A stretch of 28,663 nucleotides of DNA, taken from positions 1 through 28,663 of the forward strand of contig JADGJG010000237.1 of the NCBI GenBank assembly GCA_027596195.1, given 5' to 3'. A model generated the notes under the pieces. It was not told the DNA's origin and did no database searches. It saw nothing but the letters and a program-made list of their open reading frames with translations. How positions within the stretch are numbered: the first letter of the stretch is position 1; each line of letters begins with the position of its first letter. The position numbers were made by a program, and so were the translations under genes. This stretch comes from Podochytrium sp. JEL0797. Its lineage: Eukaryota; Chytridiomycota; Chytridiomycetes; Chytridiales; Chytriomycetaceae. Below are positions 3,465 through 20,534 of the stretch, in pieces.

Positions 3465-4559
3465 TCAGTTGCTTCCATAAACATCGTTGAAGTAGGATTT
3501 AGACTCCTTTGGGTCCGCAATCATGGTCTTGCCTCCCTTTTTAAAACAAACGCACAGTTTAGAAAAGAAATACGCGGGATGACGATCGTTTTTGAGGGAA
3601 CAAACCTTCTTCCACGACGCAGGACACACTTCGCCATTCTTCTCATTGAACTGGAACGCCTCCACCAAACGGAGCGTTTCGTCCACCGAACGCCCGACGC
3701 CCAGGTCGTTCATACTGATATGCTTCACAATTTGCTTGGGGTCAATGATGAACGTGCCACGGAGGGCCAAGCCAATATCGTCGCCTTGGTCAACCAACAC
3801 GCCGTAGTCACTAGAAATTTGCTTCGTGATATCGGCGACTGTTGCGCGTTTAGAAACAGAAAAAGGGGGGTTACGCGCTTCATAACTCATTACTCACTCA
3901 GCGGAATCTTCATATCGCCCAATCCGCCCTCCTTGCGCGGCTGGTTGATCCACGCGAGGTGAGAGTGCTTCGAATCGACGGAACATCCAACCACTTCGCA
4001 ACCAATCTTCTTGAACTCGGCAGCACGCTCCGAAAACTCAATGATCTCAGTGGGGCAAACGAAAGTGAAGTCTGGAGGTGAGCGGAGGTTTTTGTGCGGT
4101 GAGGGTGTGATGTGTACTTTCTGGGTCAGCATGCAAGAATGCGAGCGAAACTCGAGCGCATGGACATACCGAGAGGGTAGAAGAAGAGCACGAGCCATTT
4201 GCCCTTGTAGTCATCGAGGGAAACGTTTTCGAAGGCCTGGTTGAGAGAGTTTTGTGAATTTGAAATCAAACACAGATTCATGGCAGAAGATTGACCGGCA
4301 CGAAACTCTGAATGAATACATACTTTGTCGACCACTGCTCCGGCCGAGAAGCCAGGCGCCTGGTGGTTGGAAAACGAAGAAGATCAGAGAACAGCGCAGG
4401 ATGCTCGCTTTCTCGCTCCAACAAAATCACCTTCTGCTGGACACGCGCAAAGTAGTGGCTCGCAAACGGAGTGGCGCTGAAGAGGCGCTGCTGCTGAATG
4501 CGGGGAGCAAAGGAAAGGGCACGGCGGGCAAACATTTTGGCGATGTTTTTTGTTGCCAT
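3465..4559 (-). CDS. Typical 2-Cys peroxiredoxin, probable mitochondrial form (copy B)
   Basis: Six exons (4559-4431, 4359-4324, 4236-4170, 4071-3898, 3838-3606, 3536-3465) give 236 aa. The first 43 residues are rich in Arg, Ser, Ala and Phe without acidic residues ([17 protein letters not shown]...), as in a mitochondrial presequence. The core follows: [13 protein letters not shown] with the peroxidatic Cys, [24 protein letters not shown], the resolving Cys in GEVCP, and a YF near the C-terminus (KSYFNDVYG). The enzyme would reduce peroxides in the mitochondrion. It is the most diverged of the three tandem copies, with two introns of its own at the N-terminus, so it is the older paralogue. 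The start codon lies only 39 nt beyond the stop codon of copy A. Mitochondrial location is inferred from the N-terminus. Confidence 0.92.
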
Positions 4560-4598
4560 ATTTTGGCCGCATCATTCATATATTTCAAAATCAAACAT

Positions 4599-5605
4599 TC
4601 ACTTCTTGTTGACAGCAGCAAAGTACTCCTTGGACTTGTTGACGTCCGCAACCATGCTCTTGGCTCCCTAATCGCGTAAAGAAAAACAAATCATGAGTAT
4701 TCTCCCCAAAGGTCAAAATCGCCACAAAAAAGCAGAGTAAAAAAACCTTCTTCCAGTTCATTGGGCAAACGTCTCCGTGCAACTCGTGGAACTGAAACGC
4801 GTCAACAAGACGCTTGACCTCTTCAATCGAGCGTCCAATGTCCAAGTCGTTAATGGTGATTTGGCGCACGTTCTGCTTGGGGTCAATGATGAAGGTACCG
4901 CGGTAAGCGATGCCTTCGTCTTCCTTGAGGACACCGTAGGATTTGGCGATCGACTTGGTCACGTCGGCGACTATTTTTTTCAGTTTCAGTCAGCGCAAGC
5001 ACAAACCAACTCCTCCGCCTGGCTACAAAGCCTTTCAAAAGTTGAAACACTCACGCAGCGGGATCTTCATTTCGCCCAAACCGCCGTTCTCGCGGGCTTG
5101 CTTGATCCAAGCACTGCCAAGGAACAAAAATAAGGCACAATTACATAAAGGTAATGCACAAGACTCACAGGTGAGAGAACTTGGAGTCAATCGAGCATCC
5201 AATGATTTCTAAAGGGGAAGCGCGGATTTCAAATTCGTCAGTAAACAACAAGCGAACATGGTTCTCCTCACCCGTGTTGATCTTTCGGAACTCCTCAGCA
5301 GCCTCCGAGTATGCAATGATCTCAGTGGGACAAACGAAGGTGAAGTCTGGGAGTCCATTTTAGGTAAAGAGGGAGAATGCAAAAACTCCTATCAATGGTT
5401 TACCAAGCGGATAGAAGAAGAGCACGACCCATTTGCCCTTGTAGTCGCTGAGCTTGATGTCCTTGAACTCCTGGTTGAGCACAGCAGCCGTCGAGAACTG
5501 AGGGGCTGGGTGCCCGATCCTCGCGATTTCGGAAACGGGCGCGGCGTGTTCAATCTTCTGCTTCTTCTCGGGTTCGTCCTGGGCCTTTCTCTTCGTTTGG
5601 GTCAT
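4599..5605 (-). CDS. Typical 2-Cys peroxiredoxin with basic N-terminal extension, possibly nuclear (copy A)
   Basis: Six exons (5605-5404, 5346-5272, 5208-5169, 5113-5055, 4970-4747, 4667-4599) give 222 aa. The N-terminus [17 protein letters not shown] has two basic clusters about eight residues apart, resembling a bipartite nuclear localisation signal, before the shared [13 protein letters not shown] core start. Catalytic motifs are intact: [29 protein letters not shown] and SKEYF. Like the other copies it should be a thioredoxin-dependent peroxidase of the hyperoxidation-sensitive class. The final 224-nt and 69-nt exons and the intron between them nearly match copy C, whereas upstream exons are clearly more diverged, suggesting gene conversion. 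It starts 111 nt from the end of the ZFAND1-like gene. Nuclear location is only an inference. Confidence 0.92.
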
Positions 5606-6810: not shown

Positions 6811-9805
6811 CTAATTCCACATCTTTCCAAACTTGAATTTCCCCGTGATTGCTGGCTTTGCCAACGGCTGTTCCGCTGCCGCCCCGACGCGTTGCTGGAA
6901 GCATTCCAAAATGGGCAACTGCTCGGCGCGTTTCAACCCCTATCAAATGCAAACTATTGATTAACCAACAAATTATTGCGTCAATCTCAACCTGCTCACC
7001 TTCAACTCCAAAATCTTTTGCAAAGCCGTCGAATCCCCCTCCGGAAACAACAACACAAACGTCTCCACAATCCCGGACGGCGGCTCCGGAGTCCTCAACA
7101 CGACTTTGAGTAGCTGTTCGACCTTCAGAACGCCCTTTCCGAGAATCTTCAAAAACGCGGCGGGTGGAGGCACTTTGGCGTCCGACGTTGGACTCAGTTC
7201 CGAGTGGTTCCCGACGTGGGTCATTTGAATCAGGATGGTTTTGAGGGCGTGCGTGTCGAGAAGGAGTTGTTCGGCACCCACTTCGGAGATGGGTCGACAT
7301 CGGTAGATGGACGCGTGGAATTTGTTCAGGAATGATCTGGAGGAGTGTTAACGCACGAAACATCCTTGATGAATCAAAAATCACGTACTCTGAAAACTTG
7401 TCAAAAAACGTTCTCAAATACTTGGGGGTCGTCAAGTATTTGCGAATCAGCGCGACAGAATTGGTCAACGACGTTGAAATCAACGTGATATATTCGCTTT
7501 GGTCGCCCACGCTGTCCATGGTGCCCCAGGGCCGCTTGAGCATGACTGTGATGGCGGAATCGGCCATCATTTCGACAATGTTGGCGAGAGATTTGATGGC
7601 CATTCCAGTTACGCTGTGGGATTGATAAGGATTAGGTTCATCTGGCAAGAAGTGAGGGGGCGAAAGGATTGATACGCACTTGATGAAAGCCTCGTTCTCT
7701 TGGGAAAATGAAACACTCGTTTTGAATCGCTCGTCAATCTTTTCAATCAGCTTTTCTTCCAGCTGGAAATTGAAAATGCCAGAATATCGCGTTAGATTCT
7801 TCTTCAGTAACGCTTTCGCGACGGCAATGAAGCCCAAACCTGTCCAGCCGTTTGAGCGCAATAATCCGCCGTGTTGATGATCAAACAAGCCATCCTCATT
7901 TCATCCTCTGTATAGTACTTTTTATCGTCCCTGCAGAAAAATTCAAAAGTCAGAAACATAAAATATGAAGTCGGTCACAATCACCTTGGCAGTTTGGCTG
8001 CCAGAACTTCCGAATACACCTTGAGCCACTTCCCAAACAACCGACAGAGGTCCAAAAATGTCTTGTTGGTGGACAGTTTCGAACATTGCACAAGCGTTTG
8101 TCGGTAAAACAAGAACAGATCAGTGGAGGAGCTCAAGACAGCTTCCTCTTCTTCGGCATCCGAAGAAGTTTTGTAGGTTTCCATCATAGTTGCAATGTTT
8201 CTGCGTAAAGGAGGGTGGGATGAGTAGGAAGGAACAGAGGGGAAATATCAACGTGCTTCGTACTTGTTTTCGGACTCGATATACAAACGCAAATAGGGCT
8301 CAAAGCAGTTGGAAATTATGGCTCTGAATTTGCTGGGCTCGATTGGTGCATCGTCGTCCTGATTCTAACGTGCGAGGGATGCTCGTCAGCCGTGAACGTT
8401 GGAAACTGGGAAATATACTCACTCTCGGTGCAAACCTGCCTCCCACCTTCCCTTCAAACTCAATCGTCTGCTGAATTGCCATCAACATGATTTTGACGTC
8501 AATCGTGCTTTCGGTTTGCATCAACACGTCCGAAATGTCTTTCCTATAATCAAGCGGAACACCACGGGGAAAAGAAATCAGTAACAATCCAAGCTCGCCT
8601 GTAAATAATATATACATACTTTGTGTCTGCACAAAACCTCTCACAGAGGTTCTCAGCCACCTTCCAATGCGGCGGAAACACGGGCGCATGCTCTTCGTCA
8701 TGGGCTTTGAGCAAACGCTTGAGCCACGCGTATCGTCGACTCACAGAGTCTAGCGACGCGATTTCTTGGTTTTGCCGAAATATGGCTTTGTATTCTTTGA
8801 GTTGAAGGTCGCAGTACCAGTTGATGAGTTCGGTTCTGCGTTTGAAGTTTGTTGAGATGAGTTTTTGGAATTCATTCGTAAAGCTGAATGTCGAAATATT
8901 AAACGTACTGAACATCTGAGCCTAATACTTGAATTGCAAAGCAAGAATCCGAGAGTTGATTGACCACAGATCGCAGAGCACCTCCGACAAATCTGAGAGA
9001 GAAATACACGACATAAATAATATCCAATATATCGATTGCTTTACCCTGCATCAAAGTCGTTGAAGATTTGACGTTTCAAATCGATTCGCAGTTGAACAAC
9101 GCGTTCCAAGAGAACAGCAATCTGCGCCACGTTTCGGAAACTCTCAAAGTAGTTGCTCAGCTTAATGATCACCTGAATTATAACCCATCAATAGGCGGAA
9201 TCGATGGGGAAGAAGGCAAGGCCTGTGTTGATTCTTTTTCCAACACTCACTTCAAACAGTTGAGCAACATCGAGATACTCTTTTCGAGCCATGATTGTCT
9301 TCATGTGATCTAATGAGGATGCCAGCATTTGTAGTTTTTTGACGGTAGCCATCGAGAGCATGAGATTCTTTTTCGCTTGATCGAGAGAAGTGATTTCACG
9401 CGTGATATCCTGAACAAGCTGCTCGGAAGCAGCTGCTTTTTCGCGAATGCGTTTGATCTTTTCAAACAAGACCTTTGATAAAAACAGAATGATTCGTCAA
9501 AAAACGCGTCGCGCAGAACCCGGATTTTAAATGCTTACAACAATCGATTGCTTGCACTCATCAAACTCCGTCTTTGCATTAACTCCCTTCTCAGCCTGGT
9601 GCCTTACGAGAGTTGTAATGTCGTGGTCCATGGTGACAAGTTTCTTGCGGATGCGATCACGCAGCGATTCGGCATTCGACTGGGAGTTTGGGAATATCAT
9701 GGAGATGTACAGCACGGGATCGAAATCGAGGGCATCGAGTGGATCGCCGTGGGCGTGGCGCGTCGCAGCCTCGGGAGGGTCATTTGCGGTGGCGACGACT
9801 GACAT
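6811..9805 (-). CDS. VPS53: VPS53 subunit of the GARP/EARP vesicle-tethering complex
   Basis: Thirteen exons (9805-9539, 9472-9251, 9172-9045, 8992-8909, 8835-8620, 8543-8423, 8364-8264, 8200-7985, 7930-7840, 7762-7680, 7613-7389, 7336-7000, 6939-6811) give 739 aa, within the family range. Recognisable stretches are FDPVLYISMIFPNSQS near the N-terminus, the coiled-coil EITSLDQAKKNLMLS, ASLDSVSRRYAWLKR in the middle and GAEQLLLDTHALKTIL with RAEQLPILECFQQRVG near the C-terminus. GARP (Vps51-54) tethers endosome-derived vesicles at the trans-Golgi network. In-phase exon lengths support the model. The intron at 8908-8836 was chosen over a 25-nt alternative because it gives the expected family spacing. 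An upstream in-frame ATG at 9853 would add 16 residues but lies at the neighbouring gene's start, so 9805 is preferred. It is expressed divergently from bS6m. Confidence 0.93.
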
Positions 9806-16600: not shown

Positions 16601-18537
16601 GCGCAAGAATAGTTCGGCGTCGTTGAGTGGACTGTTGGGTGACGCCGAGGTGTTTTATGTGGTTGTGCCGAAAGATGCGGACGTGTTTGATGACATGTTT
16701 GGGGCCGTTGTATCTGCGCGTGAGATGGCGCGTGTGGATTTGAATGGGGTGCCGTTGGCGTTGAAGGCGCGGTTGGGAAAGTTGGGGGAGATTGAGGTTG
16801 TGGCGAGTAATGTGGTGTTGACGTTGCAGTTGAGTTTTTTTTTGTGAATTTTTTTTGTGTTTGTTTTGATTGGGTCTGATTTTAAATTTTTGTTTTCTTG
16901 CAGGAATACGTCGACAATCTGCAATATCCTTTCCGTCACCGTGTTGCCGCAGTCGGCCAAAAGCTCGAGGGCCACCACCCCCGTCGCGGCGTCAGCGACC
17001 CTGCGTCAACTTACATCGAATTTGACTCTGCTTCCGGCATCCATCCAGTCTCCTACGACCATCAATGCTTCTCCCGTTGTGGGCGAAAAATCCAAAAAGA
17101 AGAAGAAGCGAAAGTCCAAGAAGTCTGCGTCGTCGTTGTCTTCTGGGTTGTCGCAGGCGATCAATGGGGAGCCTGAGGTCGTAAAGAAGGATGAATCTGA
17201 GGTTGTGGAGAACGAGGAAGCGTTGGCGGTGGATGTGACGCCGGAAGAGTTGGAGCGGATTGTGGCCAAGATTGAAAAGAACACGGCTCTTGCGGCGGAG
17301 GGTGGTGCTGCGCCGGCCAGGCTTTCGTATGCGTCCGTTGCTGCGAAGGGATCTGAGGTGGCTTCAGTGAAAGGTATTGTTTTGACATGATTTCGATTCT
17401 CGTTGGCTTTTCTCACTCGAAAACACCCCACCAGCCCCCCTTTCGGTGGCCATCCCACACCCACCAACAGGCGCACGCTACCTTGGCGGCGCCGTGGTTC
17501 CACCCACCACCTCCTCCTCGACCTCCTCGTCCCCCACCTCCTCCCCATCCACCACCCTCCTCGCCGCATTCACCGACCCCACTCTCCAACCGCAACACCG
17601 CCACGCAATCCAACTCCTCACCACAGAACTCAGGTCGCGCAGCCAAACGATCCAATCTCTGGAAGACCGCGTGCGCGCCCTCGAGGCTGAGAAGTACGAG
17701 ATTCTCGAACAAGCCGCTGCGGCCGTGGCTCTCGCTGCGACCCCCACGCCCACTACACCGACGTTGCAGCGTAAAAAGAGTTTTGTCTCGTTTGCGGAGG
17801 TGGCGGCTGTGGCTGCCAAGACGCGTACTTGTATTGTACCGGTGGATGATGAATGGGATCATGCGATTGTGCATGATGTGGATGCGGGGTTGTCCGAGTT
17901 TGTTGGGGGTGGGCCGTCGTTGCCGTTGTTGGAGCCGGAGGTTCTGGTTGCGGAGTTGAGTTCGGATGAGCTGACGAGGGTTGAGGAAATGAACGGGGAG
18001 GGTGTGGAGGAAGTGAAGGGTGTAGAGGAAGTGGAGGAAGTGGAGGTTGTTGAGGAAGAGAGTGTTGTGGAACCAGGCCTCGAGGAAGTGAAGGTTGTTG
18101 AGGAAGAGGAACTGAAGGTTATGGAAGCCGAGAAGGTTGTCGAGGCCGAGCAGGTTGTGGAGGAAGAGAAGGATGTGGAGGAGGAGAAGGTTGTTGAAGC
18201 CGAGCAGGTTGTGGAGAAAGTGAAGGTTGTCGAAGCCGAGCAAGTTGTGGAGGAAGTGAAGGTGGCGGAGGAGGAGAGTGTTGTGGAAGCCGAGAAGGGA
18301 GCGGAGGAGCTAAAAATTGTAGAGGAAGTAAAGGGTGTGGAGGAGGAGAAGGCTGTACAGGAGGAGAAGGTGGTGGACAAGCGCCGTCTGTCGGTTGCTG
18401 AGAAGGTTGCCTTTTTTGAAGCTCTTGCTGTTGAAGAGAAGGTCGCACCTGTGAAGGAAATGGAGGAGGTTGCGAGGAATGTGCCAAGCCACGTGAGTGT
18501 CGCAACGCGTGTGCATGATGCGTCGCGTTTGGGGTGA
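13615..18537 (+). CDS. Glycogenin with a very long low-complexity C-terminal extension
   Basis: Exons 13615-14122, 14173-14351, 14410-14513, 14583-14670, 14748-16828, 16904-17373 and 17435-18537 give about 1510 aa; glycogenins are usually 300-700. Residues 1-290 form a complete GT8 glucosyltransferase: FATLITNDQYIRGA, the manganese-binding DAD at 106-108, FNSGVFVMRP, GDQGLLN, VYSYLPAVKEF and HFAGHVKPWD. Tyr226 aligns with the self-glucosylated Tyr195 of rabbit glycogenin. It primes glycogen synthesis by building a short glucan on itself. After residue 294 come a Gly/Ser/Asp segment, a His/Gln-rich region (about 395-800), a Ser-rich region, a lysine block KKKKKRKSKK near 1051, a coiled-coil QTIQSLEDRVRALEAEKYE, and an acidic repeat tail. 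No clear glycogen-synthase-binding C-terminal motif is seen. The downstream exons could belong to a separate gene, but splice phases are continuous. AATAAA at 18598-18603 fits the 3' end. Confidence 0.85.
15060..16260 (+). repeat. His/Gln-rich low-complexity coding region in glycogenin
   Basis: About 400 codons dominated by CAC/CAT and CAG/CAA, giving runs such as HHQHQPSEQQNHHQSSEQHH and imperfect units of the type DHHEHHSNEHHHSNGHNEHH. The long open frames on the other five readings here are by-products of this composition. Such tracts are prone to length change and often mediate condensation or metal binding, but neither is shown here. Confidence 0.85.
17985..18370 (+). repeat. Degenerate Val/Glu/Lys tandem repeats in the glycogenin tail
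   Basis: Repeating units of about 12 residues of the form VVEAEQVVEEEK/VKVVEAEQVV extend over roughly 130 residues (about 1328-1457 of the predicted protein). DNA units are GA-rich on the plus strand (GAGGTTGTGGAGGAAGAGAAG-like), so the minus strand carries a long Ser/Thr open frame that I regard as a shadow. The pattern suggests a charged extended helix or coiled coil. Confidence 0.8.
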
Positions 18538-18780
18538 TGAAGAGGAGATTGGTGGTGTTGTTGGTGGAGCTTTGCCTCCAAAGTTTTTTAAGTTGAAAAT
18601 AAAAGAATTCATTGTTTCGCTCTTGAGAACAAAATAAACTAAAAAATCTTATCGCGGGTGACGTCATTTCTTTTCGATGAATCGCGGGAATTTGTCCTCT
18701 CCACTTTTTTTTGATCTCCAAAACCAGCGTGAAGCCCCCTTCGCCCACCACCGCCTCGCGCCCTTTCCCTCCGCTACTTT
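18538..18780. promoter_or_regulatory. Intergenic region holding glycogenin 3' end and CPSase promoter/5' leader
   Basis: AATAAA lies at 18598-18603 for glycogenin, followed by AT-rich sequence and a possible TGACGTCA palindrome at about 18659-18666 (GTGACGTCAT), which is a CRE/ATF-like site. The fungal Gcn4/CPC1 site is TGACTCA, so this is related but not identical. A pyrimidine-rich stretch then leads into the uORF. Confidence 0.45.
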
Positions 18781-19076
18781 ATGTATAAGCACGCCTTCGA
18801 GAAAGTCAGCAACGATTACATTTCTGAACAGGTGAGGATTATCCCTTCCCAACTATCCGCAAATCCCTGCTGGGCTGCGCAGTTGGCGTCCCTGCTCTAT
18901 GGCCGTGCGTGCTGCGATGCAATGCGTGTGGCCTCTGTGTCTTCCTGCTGCGATGCGGGGACGTGCCCTGGGCCATCTTCTGCTTCACTTTCCCCTCGCT
19001 ATCATATCTGCTTGTGCCACCCTAAACACGTGCTGACGAGATATATTTTTTGCAGATCTACGAACTCAGTCTCTAA
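18781..19076 (+). CDS. Arginine attenuator peptide (AAP)-like uORF, split by an intron
   Basis: Exons 18781-18831 and 19056-19076 encode 23 residues ending at TAA. Positions 10-19 read SNDYISEQIY. They align without gaps to the Neurospora arg-2 AAP, whose equivalent core is Ser10, Asp12, Tyr13, Leu14, Ser15, Asp16, His17, Leu18, Trp19; Asp12, Tyr13 and Ser15 are identical and the other differences are conservative. In ascomycetes the nascent AAP stalls the terminating ribosome when arginine is high and blocks translation of the CPSase small subunit downstream. The uORF ATG has a weak context (T at -3), suitable for leaky scanning; the main ATG has A at -3 and lies 48 nt after the uORF stop. 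The intron falls exactly between Gln17 and Ile18. Function is inferred from position and core match. Confidence 0.85.
18832..19055 (+). other. Intron interrupting the AAP-like uORF
   Basis: A 224-nt GT-AG intron (GTGAGG...TTTTTTGCAG) with a TGCTGAC branch site 18-22 nt before the acceptor. It is longer than most introns in the window. The uORF frame stays open through the whole intron, so an unspliced transcript would encode a 108-residue uORF ending at 19107, lacking the C-terminal AAP residues. Confidence 0.85.
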
Positions 19077-19124
19077 ACAAACCCGCGAATCTACTGCTCC
19101 TTTCTGATCAACTACTACTACACG

Positions 19125-20534
19125 ATGCTCGCCAAGTCCTTGTCCCGCGCCGCGGCCCCATTGTTTGCCTGCCGCGCCGCCCCCTTCACCTACGCCCCCA
19201 AGACACTCGCACACGCCCACTTTGCCAAACGCACCCTTGCTTCCATTGCTCCCGACTCCAACAAGCTATCTCTCTCTGTGGCGCCGCCAGGCTCGCTGCC
19301 CGAACCTCCGTCGCTCCCAGCGGCACTGCACCTCGCCACTGGCTACTCGTTCGAGGGCGTGTCTTTCGGTGCGCCCATCAGCGGCAAGATCTCTGGCGAG
19401 GTTGTGTTCACGACGTCGCTTGTGGGATACACTGAATCCATGACGGACCCGTCGTACACGGGCCAGATTCTCGTGTTCACGCAGCCGCTGATTGGCAACT
19501 ACGGCGTGCCCAGCGACGCGGCGCGCGACGCGTTTGGGCTCAGCCGCTTCTTTGAGAGCAACCGCATCCAGGTGCGCGCGATTGTCGTCAACGACTACGC
19601 AGCAAAGCACTCGCACTGGGCCGCTGTCGAGTCGCTGGGCCAGTGGTGCGCGCGCTACGGCGTCCCTGCCATCAGCGGCGTCGACACGCGTGCCATCGTC
19701 ACACTTCTTCGCGCGCGTGGCTCTACTCTCGGCGAGGTTGCCGTCGCTGAAGTGAATGCGCCAATCCCGCCCCCCGCTGCCGAAGTGCCGAACCCCAACA
19801 AGGCCAATCTGTGTGCTCAGGTCTCCACATCCGACGTCTACACCATCAACCCCACCGGCGATGTCCACATTGCCCTTGTCGACTGCGGCGTCAAGCAGAA
19901 CATCATCAAGTGTCTGGTCGCCCGCGGCGCAAAGGTCTCGGTCGTGCCGTGGGACCACGACCTGGCCAACGACTCCACTGGCTTCGACGGCATCTTCCTG
20001 TCCAACGGCCCCGGTGACCCCTCCTACATGGGCAAGACGGTCGCCAACATCAAGGCCGTCATGTACAGGGACGCCACGCGCATCCCGACTCCCATCTTTG
20101 GCATCTGCATGGGCCACCAGATCCTCGGTATGGCCGCCGGCTACAAGACGTACAAGATGCCATTCGGAAACCGCGGCCACAACCAGCCCTGCAACGACTT
20201 GACCACGGGCCAGTGCGTCATCACATCGCAGAACCACGGGTACGCCATTGACGACTCTGTCTCGGTCCCAGGTTGGATGACGTACTTCCGTAACGCCAAC
20301 GACGGGTCCAATGAGGGCGTGCGTCACAAGTCGTTGCCGTACTCGTCCGTGCAGTTCCACCCGGAGGCGTGTGGTGGTCCCCTGGACACTGAGTATTTGT
20401 TTGACAACTTTTTGAACGAGGTGCGTGCCTTTAAGCGCGAACGCAAGAGAACCGAGCCTGTGGCGGAGGTGGTTCAGCTCAAGACGCGTTACATTCCTGG
20501 GGTCGCGGGGGTGCGTTCGACGGTTGAGTTTTGA
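19125..20534 (+). CDS. CPA1: Carbamoyl-phosphate synthetase, arginine-specific small (glutaminase) subunit, mitochondrial
   Basis: A single uninterrupted 469-aa frame. Residues 1-40 are rich in Ala, Arg and Ser without acids (MLAKSLSRAAAPLFACRAAP), a mitochondrial presequence. The CPSase small-chain N-terminal domain follows (GEVVFTTSLVGYTESMTDPS), then a class I glutamine amidotransferase: FLSNGPGDPSYM, GICMGHQILG with nucleophile Cys328, GNRGHNQPC, QNHGYAID, and QFHPEACGGP with His412 and Glu414. It releases ammonia from glutamine for the large subunit to make carbamoyl phosphate for arginine. The mitochondrial form, as in Neurospora arg-2, feeds ornithine carbamoyltransferase. Expression is probably repressed by arginine through the upstream AAP. 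The absence of introns in this gene contrasts with its intron-rich neighbours and its codon use is very GC-rich. The long antisense frame is a composition shadow. Confidence 0.96.
   Translation: MLAKSLSRAAAPLFACRAAPFTYAPKTLAHAHFAKRTLASIAPDSNKLSLSVAPPGSLPEPPSLPAALHLATGYSFEGVSFGAPISGKISGEVVFTTSLVGYTESMTDPSYTGQILVFTQPLIGNYGVPSDAARDAFGLSRFFESNRIQVRAIVVNDYAAKHSHWAAVESLGQWCARYGVPAISGVDTRAIVTLLRARGSTLGEVAVAEVNAPIPPPAAEVPNPNKANLCAQVSTSDVYTINPTGDVHIALVDCGVKQNIIKCLVARGAKVSVVPWDHDLANDSTGFDGIFLSNGPGDPSYMGKTVANIKAVMYRDATRIPTPIFGICMGHQILGMAAGYKTYKMPFGNRGHNQPCNDLTTGQCVITSQNHGYAIDDSVSVPGWMTYFRNANDGSNEGVRHKSLPYSSVQFHPEACGGPLDTEYLFDNFLNEVRAFKRERKRTEPVAEVVQLKTRYIPGVAGVRSTVEF

Follow-up and report, generated by a model that had tools for sequence, protein, structure and literature searches.

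Predicted intron-split upstream open reading frames resembling the arginine attenuator peptide precede CPA1, CPA2 and an ornithine carbamoyltransferase gene in one fungal genome

The window, the whole stretch of 28,663 nucleotides of DNA that was analysed, contains on its forward strand the CPA1 gene, preceded by a short upstream open reading frame (uORF) that resembles the fungal arginine attenuator peptide (AAP). The features of the gene and of the region in front of it are the following.

18646..18654, forward strand: ATCTTATCG, a GATA-type 9-mer common to four arginine-gene leaders, candidate promoter motif
18659..18666, forward strand: TGACGTCA, a CRE-like palindrome, found at CPA1 only
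18781..18831, forward strand: exon 1 of the AAP-like uORF, ATG at 18781, 17 codons, peptide MYKHAFEKVSNDYISEQ
18832..19055, forward strand: predicted intron of 224 nt, phase 0, after codon 17, donor 8.57 and acceptor 7.55 bits
19033..19037, forward strand: CTGAC, resembling a branch point, 19 nt short of the 3' splice site
19056..19076, forward strand: exon 2 of the AAP-like uORF, IYELSL followed by TAA (19074-19076)
18781..19107, forward strand: frame that would be read if the intron were retained, 108 residues, stopping 17 nt ahead of the main ATG
19077..19124, forward strand: spacer of 48 nt from the uORF stop to the main start
19125..20534, forward strand: CPA1, glutamine-hydrolysing carbamoyl-phosphate synthase (CPS) small subunit, 469 aa, single exon, Pfam PF00988 and PF00117

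The sequence-only reading had placed a 23-residue AAP-like uORF ahead of CPA1. Its coordinates were confirmed, and the gene is identified by both Pfam families and by NCBIfam TIGR01368, against which the protein scores 427.5 bits (cut-off 307.35). CPA1 was the sole PF00988 match returned from the 24.4-Mb, 995-contig genome. The approximately 65 residues ahead of the CPSase domain are a probable mitochondrial presequence. No relatives of CPA1 were found among viral contigs, and the seven loci found in the genome contig set are all prokaryotic. The AAP is a standard example of a peptide that senses its ligand while being synthesised and, to our knowledge, is known in fungi on CPA1/arg-2 only. 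High arginine causes the ribosome to stall at the uORF stop codon (PMC11550727) and the D13N substitution abolishes this arginine-dependent stalling (PMC7969011).

The borders of the predicted intron are CAG/GTGAGG at the donor (18832) and TTTTTTGCAG at the acceptor, ending at 19055, and translation of the predicted splice gives the 23-residue product MYKHAFEKVSNDYISEQ/IYELSL. The bases directly before the uORF ATG are ttt and those directly before the main ATG (19125) are acg; the weak upstream context, the 48-nt gap and the context of the main start had all been described correctly from the letters, as had the 108-residue frame of the unspliced transcript and its end 17 nt short of the main ATG. 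The intron holds four more ATGs (18899-18955), so that retained transcripts would have extra start codons. Further upstream, an ATG at 18677 would open a 52-codon frame in another phase, overlapping the uORF, if transcription began above it, and in the CPA2 leader, described below, a comparable upstream ATG is found directly after the promoter motif. Transcription probably starts below the upstream ATGs of both CPA1 (18677) and CPA2, and the CPA1 uORF itself appears to be located in the transcribed leader.

Splice signals were calibrated on introns of the host genome, taken by spliced alignment from its actin, tubulin and Hsp70 genes with only GT-AG introns admitted. Of 41 aligned introns 34 were kept, seven being dropped by judgement (three in a broken actin-like copy and four poorly supported); the 34 are not fully independent because the three beta-tubulin genes include a near-duplicate pair. 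They range from 45 to 185 nt with a median of 68.5, the most frequent donors are GTGAGT (10) and GTAAGT (5), and the acceptors are CAG (21) or TAG (13). Against this set the donor of the CPA1 uORF (8.57) ranks first among the 20 GT dinucleotides in 18601-19124 and beats 21 of the 34 calibrated donors, while its acceptor (7.55) has the top score downstream of the donor and beats about 31 of the 34. CTRAY, which 19 introns of the calibration set contain, occurs here as CTGAC. The length is a misfit, 224 nt being greater than that of every calibrated intron (n=34, maximum 185). The placing of a 224-nt intron between residues 17 and 18, as first proposed, is borne out as a prediction by the top donor and the top downstream acceptor. 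Splicing also improves the likeness to the AAP: the core score against the Neurospora crassa peptide is 29 for the spliced and 20 for the unspliced form, and a stop codon near the AAP-like position arises from splicing only. An Hsp70 pair of equal scores was seen about 10.5 kb apart (C224 60445-62376 and 70961-72892), the result either of recent duplication or of faulty assembly, and an actin-like copy with several stops (C267 21322-23378), apparently a pseudogene, was found adjoining another actin fragment.

The N. crassa AAP reference was confirmed to be the sequence in PDB 2xl1; the second reference used for scoring was the AAP of Saccharomyces cerevisiae. The CPA1 peptide is identical to that of N. 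crassa at five of 23 positions (M1, S10, D12, Y13 and S15), and I14, E16, I18 and Y19 are conservative replacements (BLOSUM62 +2 each). The residue alignment first put forward therefore stands for the identical D12, Y13 and S15 and for the conservative E16, I18 and Y19, but not for Q17, which is neutral rather than conservative since BLOSUM62 gives 0 for Gln against His17. Chance was assessed with dinucleotide shuffles in which uORFs of 18-32 codons, either unspliced or with one plausible intron, were enumerated. With the N. crassa and yeast references averaged, the CPA1 score of 29 was reached by none of 18,505 shuffles (best 28.5). With N. crassa as sole reference two of 11,589 shuffles attain the CPA1 score; this figure is what speaks for a chance likeness, in which a random short frame would happen to lie beside a chance GT-AG pair, and on that reference the sequence case for CPA1 taken alone would count as just strong. 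Taken together, peptide and splice signals strongly support the prediction that the CPA1 uORF is of the AAP type, with an intron within its core.

Two further uORFs of this kind were found in the same genome. They were not the outcome of a planned test, since they surfaced in a control scan of second-CPS loci. The scan covered 1,540 overlapping 584-nt windows of fetched loci of this genome, partly redundant and including the loci fetched for their CPS and OTC genes, and eight of these reached or exceeded the CPA1 score, all in three arginine loci: three at CPA1, three on contig C494 and two on C13. Windows at the arginine loci score 29-40.5 and the best remaining window 18.5. C494 carries the one PF02787 match that was returned, which is to the large subunit of CPS (CPA2), and C13 carries an ornithine carbamoyltransferase (OTC) gene whose coding region is one open frame. 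The CPA2 uORF encodes MPYKHAFETTCADYISDQVFKRSSH and its stop lies 35 nt before the CPA2 start; the OTC uORF encodes MYTHAHEKVSADYISDQVFKSSAL and its stop lies 152 nt before the OTC start, a gap that removal of a second predicted intron in the leader would shorten to 67 nt. Both score 32, which was reached by none of 7,118 shuffles of the CPA2 sequence (best 31) and none of 25,075 shuffles of the OTC sequence (best 29). Aligned without gaps, the CPA2 peptide and the yeast AAP have the same residue at 12 of 25 positions.

The three peptides are 23 (CPA1), 25 (CPA2) and 24 (OTC) residues long, and their core blocks are DYISEQIY, DYISDQVF and DYISDQVF respectively, compared with DYLSDHLW in PDB 2xl1. 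All three contain D-Y-[IL]-S-[DE] with x-[ILV]-aromatic after it. Residue 17 is Gln and residue 19 Tyr or Phe in each of them, the references having His17 and Trp19, and the distance from the Asp to the stop is 13 codons in CPA2 and OTC and 12 in CPA1, one under the references. The base at -3 is T at all three uORF ATGs and A at all three main ATGs, and the weak uAUG followed by a stronger main AUG in each leader would fit leaky scanning. That such uORFs stand in the leaders of three different genes of a single pathway, with common N-termini and good splice sites, makes a chance likeness extremely improbable. The AAP reading thus becomes wider than first proposed: the comparison strongly supports a predicted three-gene set of intron-split AAP uORFs. 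Paralogous uORFs of the same genome served here as a stand-in for related genomes.

Within the core, DYISDQV is the same in CPA2 and OTC despite four nucleotide differences, all at synonymous third positions. Over the whole uORF the differences at first, second and third codon positions are 4, 7 and 12 between CPA2 and OTC and 7, 7 and 11 between CPA1 and CPA2, but 8, 8 and 6 between CPA1 and OTC, with no third-position excess, so that the whole-uORF signal of selection on the peptide would have to be called mixed.

The uORFs also have Y[KT]HA[FH]E near the N-terminus in common, a feature outside the reference core. A genome-wide search with TAYAMRCAYGCNYWYGAR, a pattern for Y[KT]HA[FHLY]E built from the three uORFs themselves, gave four mismatch-free places, three of which are the uORFs. 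At up to one mismatch there were 37 places genome-wide and 26 for the reversed-pattern control, and of the 34 places outside the three uORFs, short stretches at 33 (all but the one on C358) were read, with no AAP-like uORF found. The core pattern DYIS[DE][HQ] had five other matches, as many as its reversed control, the best scoring 17.2 against 36.8-42.0 for the three uORFs; this search is blind to splits within the motif, and thus missed CPA2 and OTC, and both searches are blind to uORFs with other N-termini. The shared YxHAxE, lying outside the AAP core, speaks in favour of the idea that conservation of the uORFs reflects an ordinary inhibitory role, or some other property of the peptide, rather than the sensing of arginine. 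The common block DYIS[DE]Q[VI][FY] is, on the other hand, the part with the likeness to the fungal AAP, and each of the three genes acts in the arginine pathway, so that conservation of this other kind seems very unlikely.

A second OTC gene, on C36, is identical to the C13 OTC at 285 of 338 aligned residues and is without its N-terminal extension. No AAP-like uORF was found upstream of this paralogue. Lacking both the extension and the uORF, the C36 copy may be a cytosolic enzyme that escapes arginine attenuation.

In the CPA2 uORF (C494, minus strand, 3943 joined to 3887) and the OTC uORF (C13, 73822 joined to 73888) the predicted introns are 55 nt (donor 8.2, acceptor 5.0) and 65 nt (donor 9.1, acceptor 8.8) long, and both are of phase 1 and interrupt the conserved Tyr codon, a shared site which suggests that the two probably descend from one split uORF. 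The predicted intron of the CPA1 uORF is a different one, of phase 0 and four codons beyond the CPA2/OTC site. The leader introns could be explained either by the common tendency of introns to lie near the 5' end or by selection for keeping them. In the OTC leader a second intron, with a weakish donor (4.9) and an acceptor of 3.5, is predicted at L066 7490-7574 (C13); it lies beyond the uORF stop and contains an ATG at 7541. Its junction would lie 63 nt past the uORF stop, and translation of the uORF could trigger junction-dependent mRNA decay.

That all three uORFs are cut in the core, yet the coding regions of CPA1 and OTC are single open frames (by eye, the first 1.3 kb of CPA2 shows three introns or more), can be taken as a sign that splicing is regulated. 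AAP control would then be combined with a second switch, in which arginine or growth state shifts intron retention and the retained transcripts are without the arrest peptide. Arginine reportedly affects splicing of the arginase transcript of Aspergillus nidulans, which counts in favour of such a scheme; a literature search for this effect found no such paper. Fungal leaders with uORFs and alternative splicing are also known (PMC5640933). The sequence-only reading had raised retention as a second switch on arginine synthesis, and here it was not upheld. The frames of the retained transcripts are mutually unlike (108 residues in CPA1, 15 in CPA2 and 25 in OTC), of 5,000 shuffles of the CPA1 intron 492 likewise leave the retained frame free of stops, and the splice signals are good rather than marginal. 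The CPA1 intron folds with a z of -0.37, 71 of 200 shuffles folding at least as well, and no Rfam family matched 18300-19300 at E values up to 1. The differing retained frames and the unremarkable structure of the CPA1 intron give no support for regulated retention, which we regard as unlikely. On the same fold and Rfam results a structured RNA switch or splicing-controlling riboswitch in the CPA1 intron was rejected. The 108-residue frame was likewise discarded as a conserved product; it has no parallel in CPA2 or OTC and past the splice site is unrelated to them.

It is highly probable, in our assessment, that the uORFs are AAPs, that CPA1, CPA2 and one OTC form an AAP-controlled set, and that only spliced mRNA encodes the peptide, with splicing being constitutive. 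Transcription would run through the uORFs, and each uORF intron, taken as an ordinary spliceosomal intron, would be removed constitutively; as the AAP core is split in all three, the arrest peptide would be encoded by the spliced mRNA only. After splicing, scanning ribosomes would now and then initiate at the weak uORF AUG and translate the peptide. At high arginine they would be expected to stall, while at low arginine they would be released or would scan past the uORF and CPA1 would be made. With CPA2 and one OTC under the same kind of uORF as CPA1, the two synthetase subunits would be repressed together with the enzyme that uses carbamoyl phosphate next.

Compared with the AAPs of N. crassa arg-2 and S. 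cerevisiae CPA1, the element described here has the orthologous gene, the uORF length, the place of D-Y-[IL]-S-[DE] and the weak uAUG in common. Unlike them it is split by an intron, has Tyr or Phe in place of Trp19 and Gln in place of His17, and also lies ahead of CPA2 and OTC. Among basidiomycetes, Cryptococcus CPA1 likewise has a conserved AAP uORF, with strong ribosome occupancy and a transcript that is increased in an NMD mutant (PMC7049704); the passage on this uORF speaks of CPA1 alone and mentions no intron in it, whereas here CPA2 and OTC are included. In Toxoplasma gondii the ApiAT1 leader encodes an AAP-like uORF peptide with a critical Asp and an arginine-dependent effect, and conserved function would be a remarkable convergence according to the authors (PMC8370653). 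As here, an AAP-like peptide is found on an arginine-related gene other than CPA1, though that gene is an apicomplexan transporter and the present ones are three fungal biosynthetic genes with clearly related uORFs. Introns and uORFs occur together in other fungal leaders, those with some TPP riboswitches and that of N. crassa SAM decarboxylase, and the RNA motif reported by the authors was not found to act via splicing (PMC5640933). In these leaders splicing keeps or removes uORFs, while in the present case the intron lies inside the functional peptide. In the partial texts searched, with the comparative study of Hood et al. 2007 outside their scope, no AAP on CPA2 or OTC and no intron inside an AAP uORF was found; nor did two AAP core strings occur in the paper texts searched.

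If the AAP reading is true, a nascent-peptide sensor can spread as a regulon over three linked functions of one pathway, and Gln17 and Tyr/Phe19 provide natural variants for studying the stalling mechanism. AAP control would also reach deep into fungal history. That the host is an early-diverging fungus, as had been proposed, is plausible, a radial-spoke protein gene being present in the genome and CPA1 and CPA2 being separate genes. The radial-spoke gene, which is absent from 14 prokaryotic control genomes, indicates flagella, and the host appears to be a zoosporic fungus; separate CPA1 and CPA2 genes with presequence-like N-termini would fit a fungus. A bolder and rather doubtful suggestion is that flagellated fungi use the AAP as a splicing-licensed module for the whole pathway, acting on both CPS subunits and OTC, copied between genes together with its intron and with retention as a second means of release, of which the single-gene AAP of ascomycetes and basidiomycetes would be a reduced remnant.

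Four copies of the GATA-type motif ATCTTATCG were counted in the fetched sequence of this genome (109,930 bp), and CPA1, CPA2, OTC and the OTC paralogue each have one of them upstream, a count to be read with the motif having been chosen by eye from the leaders beforehand and the promoters of other genes having been sampled in part. Besides that at CPA1 the sites are as follows.

L065 4113 (-): ATCTTATCG upstream of CPA2
L066 7132 (-): ATCTTATCG upstream of OTC, in reverse orientation
L067 2105 (-): ATCTTATCG upstream of the OTC paralogue

The motif lies 135 (CPA1), 131 (CPA2) and 155 (OTC) nt before the uORF ATG and 73 nt before the start of the paralogue, and is a candidate site for an arginine or nitrogen regulon. 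The palindrome TGACGTCA is absent from the 700 nt ahead of the uORF ATGs of CPA2 and OTC.

Both OTCace_N matches returned are of the ornithine type, and OMP decarboxylase is present. With single matches for the small and large CPS chains and only ornithine-type OTCace_N, there is no aspartate carbamoyltransferase among the matches returned, and the pyrimidine CPS-ATCase (URA2) is missing from one of three: the assembly, the search or the organism. Elsewhere in the window, on the reverse strand at 3465-5000, neighbouring peroxiredoxin-like exons appear by eye to be tandem copies, and 4594-4989 matches both AhpC-TSA and the 1-Cys peroxiredoxin C-terminal domain.
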